64,000 nt of DNA from Phenylobacterium hankyongense (lineage in GTDB: Bacteria > Pseudomonadota > Alphaproteobacteria > Caulobacterales > Caulobacteraceae): NCBI RefSeq assembly GCF_003254505.1, contig NZ_QFYP01000001.1:1906001-1970000 (forward strand), read 5' to 3'. A program made the position numbers and the translations under genes. Positions 1,743 through 60,122 of the stretch are shown here, one piece after another. Positions within the stretch are counted from its first letter, which is position 1. Each line of letters opens with the position of its first letter. The notes beneath the pieces are model-generated. The model saw nothing but the letters and a program-made list of their open reading frames with translations. It had not been told where the DNA came from and did no database searches.

Positions 1743-3119
1743 ATGACGAAGCCTGAACTGAACATCAACGCGCGTGACGGGCTGCGCGTGGTGCTCGCCG
1801 CTGGCTTCCTGCTGCTGCTCGGCGCCAACCTGCCGGGACACCTGTCCTACGACTCCGTGGCGCAGCTCTACGAAGGCCACTTCCATGTGCGCGAGACCTG
1901 GGGTCCGGCCAGCTATGCCTGGCTGCTGGGCCTGTTCGACGCGGTGATCCCGGGCACGGCCCTCTATGTGGTGGCCAGCGCGCTGCTGCTGTTCCTGAGC
2001 CTCGCCTCCTTCGATGGGCTGCGTAATCGCATCGGCTGGGCCGGCGTCGCCGTCGCCGCGCTCGTGCTGCTGACGCCGCAGGTGCTGGTCTACCAGGCGA
2101 TCGTCTGGAAGGACGTGATGTTCGCCAACGCCGCGGTGGCCGCCCTGGTGCTGCTGGCGCACGCCGCGAGAGACTGGGACGACCGCCGCCGCCGCTGGCT
2201 GTGGCTGGTCGGCGTGGTGCTGTTGCTGGCGCTGGCCAGCCTGGTCCGCCAGAACGGGATCATCGTCACCGCGATGGCCGCGCTGGCGCTCGGGTGGATC
2301 GCCAGCCGCGGCCGGTGGGTGCGCGGCGGCGTCTGGGCGCTCGGCCTGCTGTTCGTCGTCCTGCTTGCCGCCCAGGGCCTGACGCGCCTGGCGGAGCCGG
2401 CGAACGCGCCGCCCGACACCGCTTTCCACAAGGGCGTGCGGATCCTCCAGAACTACGACATCGCCGGCGCGGTCACCCTCGACCCCGGCTACCGTCTCAC
2501 GGCTCTGGAAAAGGCCGATCCGGTGGCGGCGAAGGTGATCGAGAGCCGGGCGCCGCTCGGCTATTCCGGCCAGCGGATCGACTTCTTGGACGACGATGCG
2601 GCGTTCGGCGCGGCGCTCTGGGATGTCCCCGACCCGGCCATACGCGCGCAGTGGGCCGACCTCGTGCTGCGCCATCCCGTCTTGTACCTGCGGGTGCGGA
2701 TGGAGGACTTCCGCTGGGTGTTCGCCACCCCGGTCGTGGACCGGTGCCTGCCGATCTACGTCGGCGTCGACGCGCCCGCCGAGAAGATGCAGCCGCTGGG
2801 CCTGCAGCACCGCTTCACGCACGCGGACCGGCAGCTGATGAACTACCACACCTGGTTCCTCGACACGCCGCTCTACTCCCACGTGGCCTATGCGGCGCTC
2901 GGCCTGGTGCTGGCCGGACTGCTGCTGGCGCGGCGCGACCCCGCCGACATCGCCATGATCGCCCTGCTGCTGAGCGGCGTGGCCTTCGCCGCCAGCTTCT
3001 TCGTGATCTCGATCGCCTGCGACTACCGCTACCTCTACTTCACCGACCTCTCGGCGCTGGTGGGGCTGGTCTATGTGGCGGTGGACTTTCCGCTGCGGCG
3101 CCGGCGGGCGGCCGCCTAA
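1743..3119 (+). CDS. Polytopic membrane protein, GT-C-like putative glycosyltransferase (copy 1)
   Basis: A 458-residue protein with about ten hydrophobic segments. The first periplasmic loop reads NLPGHLSYDSV, an acidic motif in the place where GT-C transferases keep their catalytic acid, and the last loop has CDYRYLY. I therefore read it as a lipid-linked-sugar glycosyltransferase-like protein, but no named family is certain. The ATG at 1743 is preferred over the upstream one at 1674 because it has a purine-rich ribosome site (GGGGCGGAG) and matches the N-terminus of the paralogue at 4028. Its stop overlaps the stop of the convergent methyltransferase gene. Confidence 0.7.
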   Translation: MTKPELNINARDGLRVVLAAGFLLLLGANLPGHLSYDSVAQLYEGHFHVRETWGPASYAWLLGLFDAVIPGTALYVVASALLLFLSLASFDGLRNRIGWAGVAVAALVLLTPQVLVYQAIVWKDVMFANAAVAALVLLAHAARDWDDRRRRWLWLVGVVLLLALASLVRQNGIIVTAMAALALGWIASRGRWVRGGVWALGLLFVVLLAAQGLTRLAEPANAPPDTAFHKGVRILQNYDIAGAVTLDPGYRLTALEKADPVAAKVIESRAPLGYSGQRIDFLDDDAAFGAALWDVPDPAIRAQWADLVLRHPVLYLRVRMEDFRWVFATPVVDRCLPIYVGVDAPAEKMQPLGLQHRFTHADRQLMNYHTWFLDTPLYSHVAYAALGLVLAGLLLARRDPADIAMIALLLSGVAFAASFFVISIACDYRYLYFTDLSALVGLVYVAVDFPLRRRRAAA

Positions 3120-3877
3120 CGGGCGAACATCGCCTCCCAGGCGGCGGCGACCTCGAGCCGGGGCTTGCGGGCCGCGATGAACCGGTAGAGCGACAGCTGG
3201 CGGCCCAGGCCGAAGCTGCGGATCTCCACCTCGGCGAACAGGGCCCGCACCAGGGTTTCGATCTCCCGCGCGGTGTTGACGTGCTCGTGGCGCATCAGGT
3301 CGCCGTAGTCGAGGCCGTGGCGCAGGCGGAACTCCAGGCCGGTGGTCAGCGTCCAGCCAAGCCGCCAAAGGAGGCCCCCCTCGCTGGGGATCGCCGCGCG
3401 CAGGGCGCCGCCCGCCTCGAGCAGTTGCGCCGATCGGGCCAGCACCATGGGCAGGTCGCAGATGTGCTCCAGCGAGGCGACGCTGGTCACCCGGTCGTAG
3501 CGGCGCTCGCGCGGGACCTCGGTCACATCGGCGAAGACGTCGCGGACGCGGCCGCGCTCGGGGGCGTCGCGATAGAGGTCGGCGAAGGGCTCGACGATGT
3601 CGTAGGGCGCCGCGGCGGGCTCGAAGGGCGGCTGGTTGAGGGTGCCGGCTCCGAGCTCGAGGGTGGCGCGCGGCGCGCCGCCCACGGCGTCGCGGGCGAC
3701 CTGCAGGTGCAGCCAGCGCTCGAGCCGCTGCGACAGGGAGGCGGCCGGCGTCGCGCCTGCCCGATTCTCCTTGTACTGCTGCACATAGATCGCCTGCAGG
3801 CGGGGCGGCATGGCCGGGCGGGTCTTCGGGAAACTGGCGAGCACGCGCGCTGCGCCCTGGTCCCCACCGCCCGTCAT
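3116..3877 (-). CDS. Class I SAM-dependent methyltransferase
   Basis: A 253-residue protein. Motif I is TLELGAGTLNQPP, followed by PYDIVEP and the post-motif VTSVASLEHICDLP, a standard Rossmann-type methyltransferase layout. Substrate is unknown; placed between two GT-C-like genes and near sulfotransferases it probably acts on a glycan or lipid carrier, which is inference. The start was chosen at 3877 because GGAGGAG lies six bases upstream; longer frames to 4120 are unsupported. It is convergent with the gene ending at 3119 and divergent from the paralogue starting at 4028. Confidence 0.75.
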   Translation of the reverse strand: MTGGGDQGAARVLASFPKTRPAMPPRLQAIYVQQYKENRAGATPAASLSQRLERWLHLQVARDAVGGAPRATLELGAGTLNQPPFEPAAAPYDIVEPFADLYRDAPERGRVRDVFADVTEVPRERRYDRVTSVASLEHICDLPMVLARSAQLLEAGGALRAAIPSEGGLLWRLGWTLTTGLEFRLRHGLDYGDLMRHEHVNTAREIETLVRALFAEVEIRSFGLGRQLSLYRFIAARKPRLEVAAAWEAMFAR

Positions 3878-56435: not shown

Positions 56436-56504
56436 CCCCCCATTTCCCCTTTCGCCTGACGCGCCCTGTCCGTGGCCGCCGCCGGGCTCTCGCCGAGCTT
56501 ATCC

Positions 56505-58292
56505 ATGACCGACCATTACGAGGACAGCGACGAACATCGTCAGCGGGTCCTGAAGAACCACCAGGTGTTGGGATTCATCGCCGGCTTCTGGCTGCGCCAA
56601 CCCTGGCTGTTGATCGGCACCGTCGGCCTGACCCTGGTCGCCATCGGCTTCGACCTGGCCCTGCCGTGGGCGGCGGGCCGGCTGGTCAATGCTGTGGCGG
56701 CGGGCCCGGCGCATCCGGATCCGGCGTGGCGCGCCTGGGCGGTGTTCGTCGGCGTCTACCTGGCGTTCTCCGTCATCCGCAACCTGGCCATGCGGTTCCT
56801 GATCCCGATGTCGGCCAACAACATGAAGGCGATGACCGACGAGGCCTTCCGGCGGGTGCAGGCCTTCTCCTCCGACTGGCACGCCGACACCTTCGCCGGC
56901 GCCACCGTCCGGCGGCTGAGCCGCGCGATGTGGGGCTATGACACCGTCACCGACGCGGCTTTGATCTGGTTCGGACCGGCCGGCGTGGTGCTGCTCGGCC
57001 TGTGCGTGATGATGCTGCTGCGCTGGCCGGTGGTGGGGCTGTTCGCGCTTTGCGTGGTGGTGCTCTACGTCGTCTCCAACATCGTGCTGACCTCGCTCTA
57101 CGCCCGGCCCGCCAACCTGAGGTCGGTGGCGCTGGACTCGCGGATCGGCGGGGCGCTGGCGGACTCCATCTCCTCCAACTCGACGGTGAAGGCGTTCGGC
57201 GCCGAGGCGCGGGAGGACGTGCGCATCGCCGGGGTCACGGAGATGTGGCGCAAGGCCACCATCCGCACCTGGAGCCGGTTCACCGACCTGTGGCTGCTGC
57301 ACAGCCTGGTCCTGGTGGGCCTGCAGGCCGGGCTGTCGGGCCTGCTGGTCTGGGAGTGGACCAAGGGCCGGGCCAACGCCGGCGACATCGCCTTTGCGGT
57401 GACCTCGTTCATGCTGATGACCAGCTACCTGCGCAACATCGGCGACAACATCCGCATGGCGCAGCGCGGGCTGGACGACAGCGAGGACGTCGCCCGCTAT
57501 GCGACCACGCCGCCGCAGGTGCTGGACGCGCCGGCGGCCGGGGGCTTCCGCGCCGACCTCGGGGAGGTCGTCTTCGACCACGTGACCTTCCGCTACAAGT
57601 CGGCGGAGCGGCCGCTGTACGACGGCTTCTCGCTGACCATCGCGCCCGGCGAGCGGGTGGCGCTGGTGGGGCCGACCGGGTCGGGCAAGTCGACCTTCGT
57701 CAAGTTGATCCAGCGGCTCTACGACGTGGAGGGCGGCCGCATCCTGATCGACGGCCAGGACATCGCGCAGGTGACGCAGGGCTCGCTGCGGCGGGCGATC
57801 GCGGTGGTGCCCCAGGACCCGGCGCTGTTCCACCGCAGCCTCGCGGAGAACATCGCCTACGCCCGCCCCGACGCCACCCGCGACGAGGTGGAGCTGGCCG
57901 CCCGCCGCGCCCGCGCCCACGACTTCATCGCCCGGCTGCCGAACGGCTACGCCACCCTGGTGGGCGAGCGCGGCGTGAAGCTGTCCGGCGGCGAGCGGCA
58001 GCGGGTGGCGATCGCCCGGGCGTTCCTGGCCGACGCCCCGATCCTGGTGCTGGACGAGGCCACCTCCTCGCTCGACGTGGAGACCGAGCGGCAGGTGCAG
58101 GCGGCCATGGAGGAGCTGATGGTCGGCCGCACCACGGTGGTCATCGCCCACCGCCTGTCCACCATCCGCGGCGCCGACCGCATCCTAGTGTTCGACAACG
58201 GCCGCATCGTCGAGGAAGGCCGCCACACCGACCTGGTCAACCAGGGCGGCGCCTACGCCCGGCTGCACGCGGTGACGGAGGGTTGGGCTTAG
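56505..58292 (+). CDS. ABC-type exporter (permease-ATPase half transporter)
   Basis: A 595-residue half transporter of the multidrug/lipid exporter type. Six helices span ~30-330; then Walker A GPTGSGKST, signature LSGGERQR, Walker B ILVLDEATSSLD and H-loop IAHRLST. Unlike the MsbA-like gene at 38849, it has no lipid A neighbours and a long leader. Substrate unknown. Start ATG 56505 is preferred to GTG 56472. It is followed by the DUF559-repeat unit. Confidence 0.88.
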   Translation: MTDHYEDSDEHRQRVLKNHQVLGFIAGFWLRQPWLLIGTVGLTLVAIGFDLALPWAAGRLVNAVAAGPAHPDPAWRAWAVFVGVYLAFSVIRNLAMRFLIPMSANNMKAMTDEAFRRVQAFSSDWHADTFAGATVRRLSRAMWGYDTVTDAALIWFGPAGVVLLGLCVMMLLRWPVVGLFALCVVVLYVVSNIVLTSLYARPANLRSVALDSRIGGALADSISSNSTVKAFGAEAREDVRIAGVTEMWRKATIRTWSRFTDLWLLHSLVLVGLQAGLSGLLVWEWTKGRANAGDIAFAVTSFMLMTSYLRNIGDNIRMAQRGLDDSEDVARYATTPPQVLDAPAAGGFRADLGEVVFDHVTFRYKSAERPLYDGFSLTIAPGERVALVGPTGSGKSTFVKLIQRLYDVEGGRILIDGQDIAQVTQGSLRRAIAVVPQDPALFHRSLAENIAYARPDATRDEVELAARRARAHDFIARLPNGYATLVGERGVKLSGGERQRVAIARAFLADAPILVLDEATSSLDVETERQVQAAMEELMVGRTTVVIAHRLSTIRGADRILVFDNGRIVEEGRHTDLVNQGGAYARLHAVTEGWA

Positions 58293-58299
58293 GGTTTAG

Positions 58300-58380
58300 G
58301 GGCGGCGGCCTTGCGCCCCCTCCGTCTCGCCGCTGCGCGGCGATCCACCTCCCCCGTCGTCTGCGCGACAGGGGAGGAGC
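58300..58380 (+). repeat. 81-bp intergenic repeat, copy 1 (direct)
   Basis: GGGCGGCGGCCTTGCGCCCC... through ...GGGGAGGAGC. It matches copy 2 (58836-58916) at 80 of 81 positions; the single difference is A58370 versus G58906. Each copy can fold as two hairpins (CGCCGC...GCGGCG and CCTCCCCC...GGGGAGG). Confidence 0.95.
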
Positions 58381-58392
58381 AGGGCGGCTTTC

Positions 58393-58460
58393 GCTCCTCC
58401 CCCGAAGGGAACACTTCGGGGGAGGGGGACCGCGAAGCGGTGGAGGCGGCGCAAGGCCGC
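58393..58460 (-). repeat. Diverged inverted copy of the 81-bp repeat
   Basis: Read on the minus strand it begins GCGGCCTTGCGCC.CCTCC and ends GGGGGAGGAGC, the same ends as copy 1 with a different, shorter middle (CGAAG-TGTTCCCTTCG hairpin). It lies 10 bases before the DUF559 stop codon. Confidence 0.8.
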
Positions 58461-58469
58461 ACCCACCAG

Positions 58470-58829
58470 CTAGGAAGGCCTCCCCGACGCCAGGCCTAAG
58501 ACCCACTCGGCCACGGCTTCCGGATCCTCAAGGACGGAGGACGCCGGAATCCGCAGCACCTGTATCCCCTGTTCCCGCAGGTGGGCGTCGCGACGCTGAT
58601 CGCGCTCCGGCCGGTCCCCCATGTCGTGGGACGCCCCATCCACTTCCACGCACAGCCTCGCTTCGGCGCAATAGAAGTCGAGCACATAGGGGCCGATCGG
58701 GTGCTGCCGGCGGACGACCGGGCGCCCGGCGTCGCGACGCCGCAGGCGCACCCACAGAAGCTTCTCCGGGAGGCTGAGGACCCTGCGGAGCTGTTTCGCC
58801 CGGGTTTGGGTTGGGCTGGGCGCTCTCAT
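58470..58829 (-). CDS. DUF559 domain-containing protein (Vsr/PD-(D/E)XK endonuclease-like)
   Basis: A 119-residue protein. The DUF559 core is complete: LPEKLLWVRLRRRDAG, FRRQ-like VVRRQHPIGPYVLDFYC (D51), ARLCVEVDGASH (E62, D64) and GIQVLRIPAS. The family has the fold of very-short-patch-repair nucleases with an Asp/Glu active site, which is present here. The start codon is six bases from the repeat at 58836-58916 and the stop ten bases from the inverted repeat at 58393-58460. Confidence 0.85.
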   Translation of the reverse strand: MRAPSPTQTRAKQLRRVLSLPEKLLWVRLRRRDAGRPVVRRQHPIGPYVLDFYCAEARLCVEVDGASHDMGDRPERDQRRDAHLREQGIQVLRIPASSVLEDPEAVAEWVLGLASGRPS

Positions 58830-58835
58830 AGGTCT

Positions 58836-58916
58836 GGGCGGCGGCCTTGCGCCCCCTCCGTCTCGCCGCTGCGCGGCGATCCACCTCCCCCGTCGTCTGC
58901 GCGACGGGGGAGGAGC
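58836..58916 (+). repeat. 81-bp intergenic repeat, copy 2 (direct)
   Basis: Same sequence and orientation as 58300-58380 with one mismatch. It abuts the end of ycaQ, whose stop codon starts four bases later, and lies just ahead of the DUF559 start on the minus strand, so it may hold its promoter. Confidence 0.95.
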
Positions 58917-58919
58917 GGG

Positions 58920-60122
58920 TTAGGACGACGCATCGGTGAGCGCTGCGGCCAGGTCGCCCTTGGGTTCGATGCGGACGGCGCCAAGTCCCAGCCAGCCGGC
59001 CATCAGCTTGAGTTCGATGGCCAGCCGGACCGGCGTCTCCGCCGTGGCCCAGGGTTCGGCGTGGGCGGCCTGGACCACCAGGACGCCGGCCTTGCGCTCG
59101 GCCTTCAGGTCGACGCGGGCGGTGAGGGCGTCGCCTTCCAGGAACGGCAGGACGTAGTAGCCGTGGGTGCGCTTTTCGGCCGGGGTGTAGATCTCCAGCC
59201 GCACGCGGACGCCGAACATCCGCTCGGTGCGCTCGCGGAACCAGATGGCGTTGTCGAAGGGGGAGAGCAGGGCGGCGGCGTCGATGCGGCGCGGCCTGCG
59301 GGCGGCGGGGTCGAGGTAGGCGGGCTCGCGCCAGCCCTTCACCGCCACGGGCGCGAGGTCGCCGGCCTCGACCAGCTCGGCGAGCCGTCCCCGGGTCTCC
59401 GCCACCCCCATGCGGAAGTAGTCGCGCAGGTCGCGCTCGGTGGCGACGCCGAGCGCGCGGCCGGCGATCCGCAGCAGCTGGCGCTGGGCCTCCTCGCGCG
59501 GCGGGGTCCGCGCGTTCAGGATCGCCCGCGGCAGCACCGTCTGCGGCAGACCGTAGACCCGCTCGAAGGTCCCGCGCCGGGTGGCGGCGGTGAGCTCGCC
59601 GGTCCAGAACAGCACTTCCAGCGCCCGCTTGGACTCGCTCCAGCCCCACCAGCCGCCGTTGCCCTTGTGGCCGAGCTCCAGCTCCGAGGCCGACAGCGGG
59701 CCGCGCTCGGCGATCTCCGCCAGCACCTGGTCGACGAACTCCCGCCGCTCCCGGAGGAAGCGCGCGATCCCCTTCCAGGTGCCGACGCCGTCGTGGGCGT
59801 CGGCCATCCGCCATCGCAGCAGGGGCTGGCTTGAGAGCGGCAGCAGCGAGGCCTCATGCGCCCAGTACTCGAACAGCGCCGGCGCCTTGCCCCAGGCGAC
59901 CTCTTCGAGCAGGGCGCGCGGATAGGCGCCCAGGCGCGAGAAGGCCGGCAGGTAGTGGGTGCGCGAGACCACGTTGACGGAATCGATCTGCACCACGCCC
60001 AGCCGCTCGACCAGCTTGACCAACTGGCGGCGGCCGACCTCGCCGTCAGGGCGCGGCCGGCCGAAGCCCTGGGCGGCGAGCGCGATGCGCCGGGCCTCCG
60101 CGGCCGACAGCGTCGGCGTCAT
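58920..60122 (-). CDS. Winged-helix DNA glycosylase, YcaQ family (HTH_42)
   Basis: A 400-residue protein. The family blocks are LGVVQIDSVNVVSRTHYLPAFSRLG, FEYWAHEASLLP, GELTAATRRGTFERVYGL and WFRERTERMFG. YcaQ-type enzymes unhook interstrand DNA cross-links. Overlaps the aldo/keto reductase gene stop by 4 bp (ATGA); the long frame to 61052 is a shadow. Confidence 0.88.
   Translation of the reverse strand: MTPTLSAAEARRIALAAQGFGRPRPDGEVGRRQLVKLVERLGVVQIDSVNVVSRTHYLPAFSRLGAYPRALLEEVAWGKAPALFEYWAHEASLLPLSSQPLLRWRMADAHDGVGTWKGIARFLRERREFVDQVLAEIAERGPLSASELELGHKGNGGWWGWSESKRALEVLFWTGELTAATRRGTFERVYGLPQTVLPRAILNARTPPREEAQRQLLRIAGRALGVATERDLRDYFRMGVAETRGRLAELVEAGDLAPVAVKGWREPAYLDPAARRPRRIDAAALLSPFDNAIWFRERTERMFGVRVRLEIYTPAEKRTHGYYVLPFLEGDALTARVDLKAERKAGVLVVQAAHAEPWATAETPVRLAIELKLMAGWLGLGAVRIEPKGDLAAALTDASS

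Follow-up and report, generated by a model that had tools for sequence, protein, structure and literature searches.

Introduction

Small nuclease genes placed between two inverted hairpin repeats are known from the REP-RAYT units, also called REPtrons, and from REPINs, whose repeats are in addition dispersed without a gene, often as doublets (PMC2817692, PMC3116915). In the Alphaproteobacteria, CGTC-tagged REPs are abundant palindromes arranged in inverted dimers, and they have been reported without a dedicated transposase (PMC3733652). The DUF559 family, to which VsrA of Caulobacter (PMC12907096) and YcjD of Escherichia coli (PMC1189080) belong, has a Vsr-like fold.

Here we describe a DUF559 gene enclosed by REP-like hairpins in a window of Phenylobacterium hankyongense DNA, the window being the whole stretch of 64,000 nucleotides that was analysed. 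The arrangement is similar to that of the REP/RAYT systems in that the DUF559 gene is flanked by two inverted REP-like palindromes (63 of 80 loci in one set, 62 of 71 in another), the same repeats also occur away from the gene, often as doublets, and the repeat diversifies along with its enzyme. It differs from them in the enzyme, which is a PD-(D/E)XK nuclease and not a Y1 HUH (IS200/IS605-like) transposase, in the larger units made of two hairpins and a G-rich tail, in the lack of a GTAG head in the units of the window and in the inspected alignments of units, and in the absence of a Y1 gene from most of the genomes tested. As the architecture fits the definition of a RAYT unit (PMC2817692) and the enzyme does not, we regard the DUF559 units as an analogue of these systems rather than a member.

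Among other known systems, the Vsr-like (EDxHD) homing endonuclease I-Bth0305I (PDB 3R3P) has a related catalytic domain, by sequence and predicted fold, whereas the DUF559 gene is intergenic, flanked by repeats and free of an intron, and its proposed homing target would be the repeat itself. The mismatch endonucleases Vsr and VsrA, as well as YcjD, have the DUF559/Vsr-like fold in common with the window protein; the difference lies in the palindromic repeats, to which DUF559 was not tied in any earlier report found by our search, with subscription journals and preprints mostly outside its reach. The RepRanger survey of REPs likewise makes no mention of nucleases. The CGTC REPs are also alphaproteobacterial palindromes in inverted dimers, but the published units are shorter, with stems of 8-9 bp (PMC3733652). 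Finally, the MITEs of insertion sequences are gene-less pairs of terminal repeats that derive from a coding element, whereas no DDE transposase was found in the DUF559 unit, nor any duplication of the target in the junctions compared.

Results

A DUF559 gene between inverted hairpin units

The locus occupies the junction between an ABC transporter gene and a gene that we take, following the preliminary description and general knowledge, to be ycaQ. Its features, in window coordinates, are:

56472..58292, plus strand: ABC transporter gene, left neighbour on the host side of the junction
58300..58383, minus strand: outer REP-like unit, in the order tail, hairpin B, hairpin A; hairpin fold z -2.3
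58392..58466, plus strand: inner inverted REP-like unit by the DUF559 stop codon, with hairpin A at 58396-58425, hairpin B at about 58429-58441 and then the G-rich tail; fold z -4.9, 0/200 shuffles
58470..58829, minus strand: DUF559 (PF04480) gene for a PD-(D/E)XK, Vsr-like nuclease of 119 aa
58836..58919, minus strand: right REP-like unit, 6 nt upstream of the DUF559 start codon; fold z -3.8, 0/200 shuffles
58920..60120, minus strand: presumed ycaQ-like gene, start approximate, right neighbour on the host side of the junction

The preliminary description had placed a complete DUF559 gene between two same-orientation copies of an 81-bp repeat that have a single mismatch, with a diverged inverted copy inside. 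All three copies are there: 58300-58383 and 58836-58919 have the same orientation and share 98% identity over 84 nt, with 1 difference in the first 81, and the diverged inverted copy lies between them at about 58392-58460, reaching 58466. The gene is indeed a complete ORF of 119 aa, but the pair that defines its bracket is inverted (58392-58466 and 58836-58919) and is not the near-identical direct pair. Between the ATG end of the gene and the right repeat there are 6 nt, and 9 nt separate the stop codon from the inner copy. The outer left unit is a third one, paired with the inner one as a doublet. The direct 84-bp pair was ruled out as the ends of the element, because in relatives it is an inverted pair that hugs the gene.

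Each unit of the window is predicted to fold into two hairpins with a C/G-rich tail, and a search of the window for the 30-nt hairpin core gave 2 matches, versus 0 in 100 shuffles. The repeat is dispersed in the genome, with 24 copies at the BLAST level and 14 by the strict unit pattern. This genome has 2 DUF559 genes. The second one (L025:1350-1499; G000:C1 ~3525687-3525846) is accompanied by another palindrome, of which no further copies were found in the window genome; its inverted pair, translated in part into the DUF559 reading frame, lies on the 3' side only, so that this gene has no bracket.

The assignment of the protein to DUF559, with D51, E62 and D64 in place, was borne out by a PF04480 match of 90.5 bits (curated cut-off 20.6; E 8e-26) and by the invariance of E22, D51, E62, D64 and H68 in 39 homologues. 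Among eight junction orthologues dN/dS ranges from 0.08 to 0.31, values that are approximate because synonymous sites are near saturation. At the level of the aligned sequences, this comparison shows purifying selection on the gene, with its predicted catalytic residues intact. Both the sequence and the predicted structure (pLDDT 88.9) give the window protein the EDxHD, or Vsr-type, catalytic fold. The folds nearest to the model are NGO0050 (3HRL), itself a DUF559 protein, and then the homing endonuclease I-Bth0305I (E 1e-4), also related by sequence (E 0.0015), ahead of Vsr (E 0.02).

Linkage of DUF559 genes and inverted repeats

DUF559 was detected in 118 of the 149 sampled genomes of Caulobacteraceae, where a single genome can have as many as 13 copies, and in 126 of the 387 alphaproteobacterial genomes sampled. 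Linkage was scored by matching the 300 bp on the left of the gene, inverted, to the 300 bp on its right, with about 166 shifted positions in the same locus serving as control. The first set comprised 80 loci of Alphaproteobacteria of about 12 kb each, weighted to strong Pfam matches and including several copies from some genomes. The inverted pair at the DUF559 gene scored above every same-locus control in 63 of them, with a median score of 67.5 versus 21, and a score of at least 36 was reached by 63/80 DUF559 genes compared to 2/543 other ORFs of the same loci. In a second, independent set of named GTDB genomes, from Phenylobacterium, Caulobacter, Brevundimonas, Asticcacaulis, Novosphingobium, Sphingomonas and other genera, 62 of 71 loci were positive versus about 0.8 expected. 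The association of DUF559 with inverted repeats in the Alphaproteobacteria is close to certain.

The link that the preliminary description had drawn from a single locus is general, as counted with internal controls across Caulobacteraceae and other Alphaproteobacteria. A scatter of repeats with no link to DUF559, which it had considered, was not seen: the repeats are scattered yet tied to the gene. Its idea of a repeat-associated nuclease other than a RAYT finds strong support as an association. Repeat type follows protein type, and RAYT-type enzymes are not needed.

The distance from the end of an arm to the start codon is usually about 0-80 nt, and the stop codon often falls at the opposite arm or within it. 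Arms and gene together span about 430-670 bp. The other 17 of the 80 loci have no inverted pair; some of these have one-sided doublets.

Co-diversification of gene and repeats

Protein identity and arm similarity are correlated, with a rho of 0.94 for 57 same-genome pairs and a Mantel rho of 0.34 over 64 loci, a value as high being reached in 0 of 2000 permutations. Genome G132 has a 45%-identical DUF559 protein that carries wholly different arms. Gene copies of genome G104 whose proteins are 90-95% identical have arms in common and different flanks, and their left arms are closer to left arms than to right arms. The inverted hairpin units on either side of a DUF559 gene diversify along with it, and what recent copies have in common is the gene and its arms, not the flanks. 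Such a dependence between repeat and protein would result from co-inheritance as a block or from specific recognition. Within one genome, left and right repeats are mostly more alike than typical same-side repeats of different genomes (in most of seven gene-bearing genomes, with G593 as an exception), which fits conversion between the flanking repeats or repeated re-insertion.

For a target duplication at the G104 copies, relatives offered no clean orthologous empty site. Just beyond the right arms of the copies L147, L148 and L149 there is a similar GGA(A/G)CGTCCG-like motif, possibly a target preference.

Gene-less units and junction states

The Caulobacteraceae unit pattern gave up to 119 units per genome, and 0 when the pattern was reversed. 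DUF559 is present in 25 of the 26 genomes with at least 5 units, the exception being G071; units occur without DUF559 in both G078 and G071. Genome G044 (Caulobacteraceae, genus g21) has 11 DUF559 genes and 0 units of the type counted in its genus. Elsewhere in the DUF559 loci, cognate units are rare (19 in 636 kb). The hairpin structure is conserved through compensatory change, as seen in hairpin B: across 35 distinct units from the genus, the same pairs appear as C-G, G-C and A-T. Both doublets and single units of this type are dispersed without a gene, and genome G367 has ~30 gene-less doublets of about 110 bp. At one gene-bearing locus of this genome (L100, G367:C1 1419914-1420570), a 10-bp stretch by the gene start (CGTCACTTGC) recurs just beyond the far doublet, as if the doublet and the start region had been duplicated.

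The preliminary description had looked to orthologous ABC-ycaQ junctions for the history of the unit. Empty, repeat-only and repeat-plus-gene states do all occur among relatives, and they are interspersed on the ycaQ tree, which gives no direction of change. Some relatives have empty junctions of 11, 11, 38 and 63 bp, and others have a single unit, a doublet, or one or more doublets with the gene, including doublet-gene-doublet; between species, junctions of 11-63 bp compare with one of ~633 bp. A second junction is 49 bp long in G434 and about 660 bp in G367, where it holds the unit. These comparisons are between species, and they gave neither a target-site duplication nor a precise empty site from the same strain.

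Origin of the REP-DUF559-REP units

These observations suggest a self-spreading DNA unit of a previously undescribed kind, which populates genomes with short palindromes. We assign a probability of roughly 0.6 to the reading that REP-DUF559-REP is a compact mobile or homing-like genetic unit, a non-homologous analogue of the REP/RAYT REPtrons. The more specific proposal has about an even chance of being right: the unit would represent a new class of selfish DNA, in which a Vsr-fold nuclease unrelated to transposases cuts and spreads its own hairpin repeats, with or without the gene, via host recombination. Both the cutting of hairpins by DUF559 and the spreading of the units are inferred from the genomic patterns. 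The nuclease would recognise the hairpin unit that belongs to it, as single-stranded DNA or as a cruciform, then nick or cut it, and the break would be repaired by host recombination off another copy that bears the unit, with the repeats themselves supplying the homology. Like the action of a homing endonuclease, this repair would place copies of the unit at new sites, at times together with a gene enclosed by two units. Gene-less doublets would be non-autonomous products, and recombination between the flanking repeats would remove the gene, with a doublet or one unit staying behind. A PD-(D/E)XK enzyme by itself is not known to join strands, so that spreading would need host repair. Also less in keeping with this reading are the 17 of 80 loci that have no inverted pair, genome G044 with its 11 DUF559 genes and 0 of the counted units, the units of G078 and G071 that have no DUF559 beside them in the genome, and the weaker pattern outside the Alphaproteobacteria.

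The same nuclease could instead serve maintenance, by processing or resolving its cognate hairpins (cruciforms) and thereby limiting replication trouble, the two staying linked without any spreading because loss is costly. The Vsr-like fold of DUF559 and the purifying selection on it are in line with such a role, as is the SOS induction of the Caulobacter DUF559 protein VsrA, which ties it to DNA damage (PMC12907096). We nevertheless consider it unlikely in view of the multicopy DUF559 genes within one genome (up to 13), the recent copies with arms in common and differing flanks, and the units that persist in G078 and G071, where DUF559 genes are absent. That another agent moves DUF559 genes into pre-existing host REP sites, used as safe havens, is quite unlikely. 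The repeat-only states at the same ABC-ycaQ junction would suit this explanation, but host repeats predict no dependence of repeat type on protein type and are therefore disfavoured by the one seen within single genomes (rho 0.94); recent copies moreover retain their own left and right arms, and few cognate units exist elsewhere in the same loci (19 in 636 kb).

Hairpins at gene ends can terminate transcription, and those around DUF559 might be mere terminators of an ordinary very-short-patch mismatch repair enzyme. Although VsrA of Caulobacter has been proposed to be Vsr-like (PMC12907096), we judge this improbable: the hairpins are found on both sides of the gene, upstream included, such flanks occur in just 2/543 other ORFs of the same loci, repeat type follows protein clade, and the homing endonuclease matches the structure better than Vsr does (E 1e-4 versus 0.02). 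Movement of the repeats in trans by RAYT (Y1 HUH) transposases, with DUF559 as a passenger, is highly improbable despite the resemblance of the architecture to REP-RAYT-REP (PMC2817692). A search of 16 genomes for Y1_Tnp (PF01797) gave no match in 14, including those with 98-119 units, with one match above the cut-off in G158 and a weak match with a stop in G006, and the units seen are without the GTAG tag of RAYT REPs.

The association ties DUF559, a large nuclease family of unknown function, to cognate hairpin repeats and gives it a testable role. It shows that the architecture of REP/RAYT systems has also arisen around an unrelated enzyme, and it bears on the reading of Caulobacter VsrA and E. 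coli YcjD. If REP-DUF559-REP is a selfish unit, the origin of many alphaproteobacterial palindromic repeats would be explained, and possibly that of some in Deinococcus, Neisseria and enterobacteria.

DUF559 loci outside the Alphaproteobacteria

The pattern of a DUF559 gene with an inverted pair is weaker outside the Alphaproteobacteria. Among 19 loci of non-alphaproteobacterial Pseudomonadota, an inverted pair scored at least 50 in 9, and 0 were above the 99th percentile of mismatched pairs. The DUF559 gene of Deinococcus psychrotolerans, located within paa genes, is bracketed by arms of about 70 bp (score 115 versus 25). In Neisseria gonorrhoeae, the DUF559 gene (L259 around 3001-3306; NGO0050, structure 3HRL) appears by eye to be flanked by direct copies of ~90 bp with a CCCTCTCCC palindrome.

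E. coli ycjD was rejected as a clean present/absent site, since an efflux gene cluster adjoins sapF in the inspected genomes that have no ycjD. Of 5426 E. coli genomes, 3365 have the gene. In E. coli K-12, ycjD (L267:2193-2546) is a DUF559 gene between sapF and fabI with REP-like units on its 3' side, and by eye the repeats at the DUF559 genes of E. coli and Klebsiella are confined to the 3' side.
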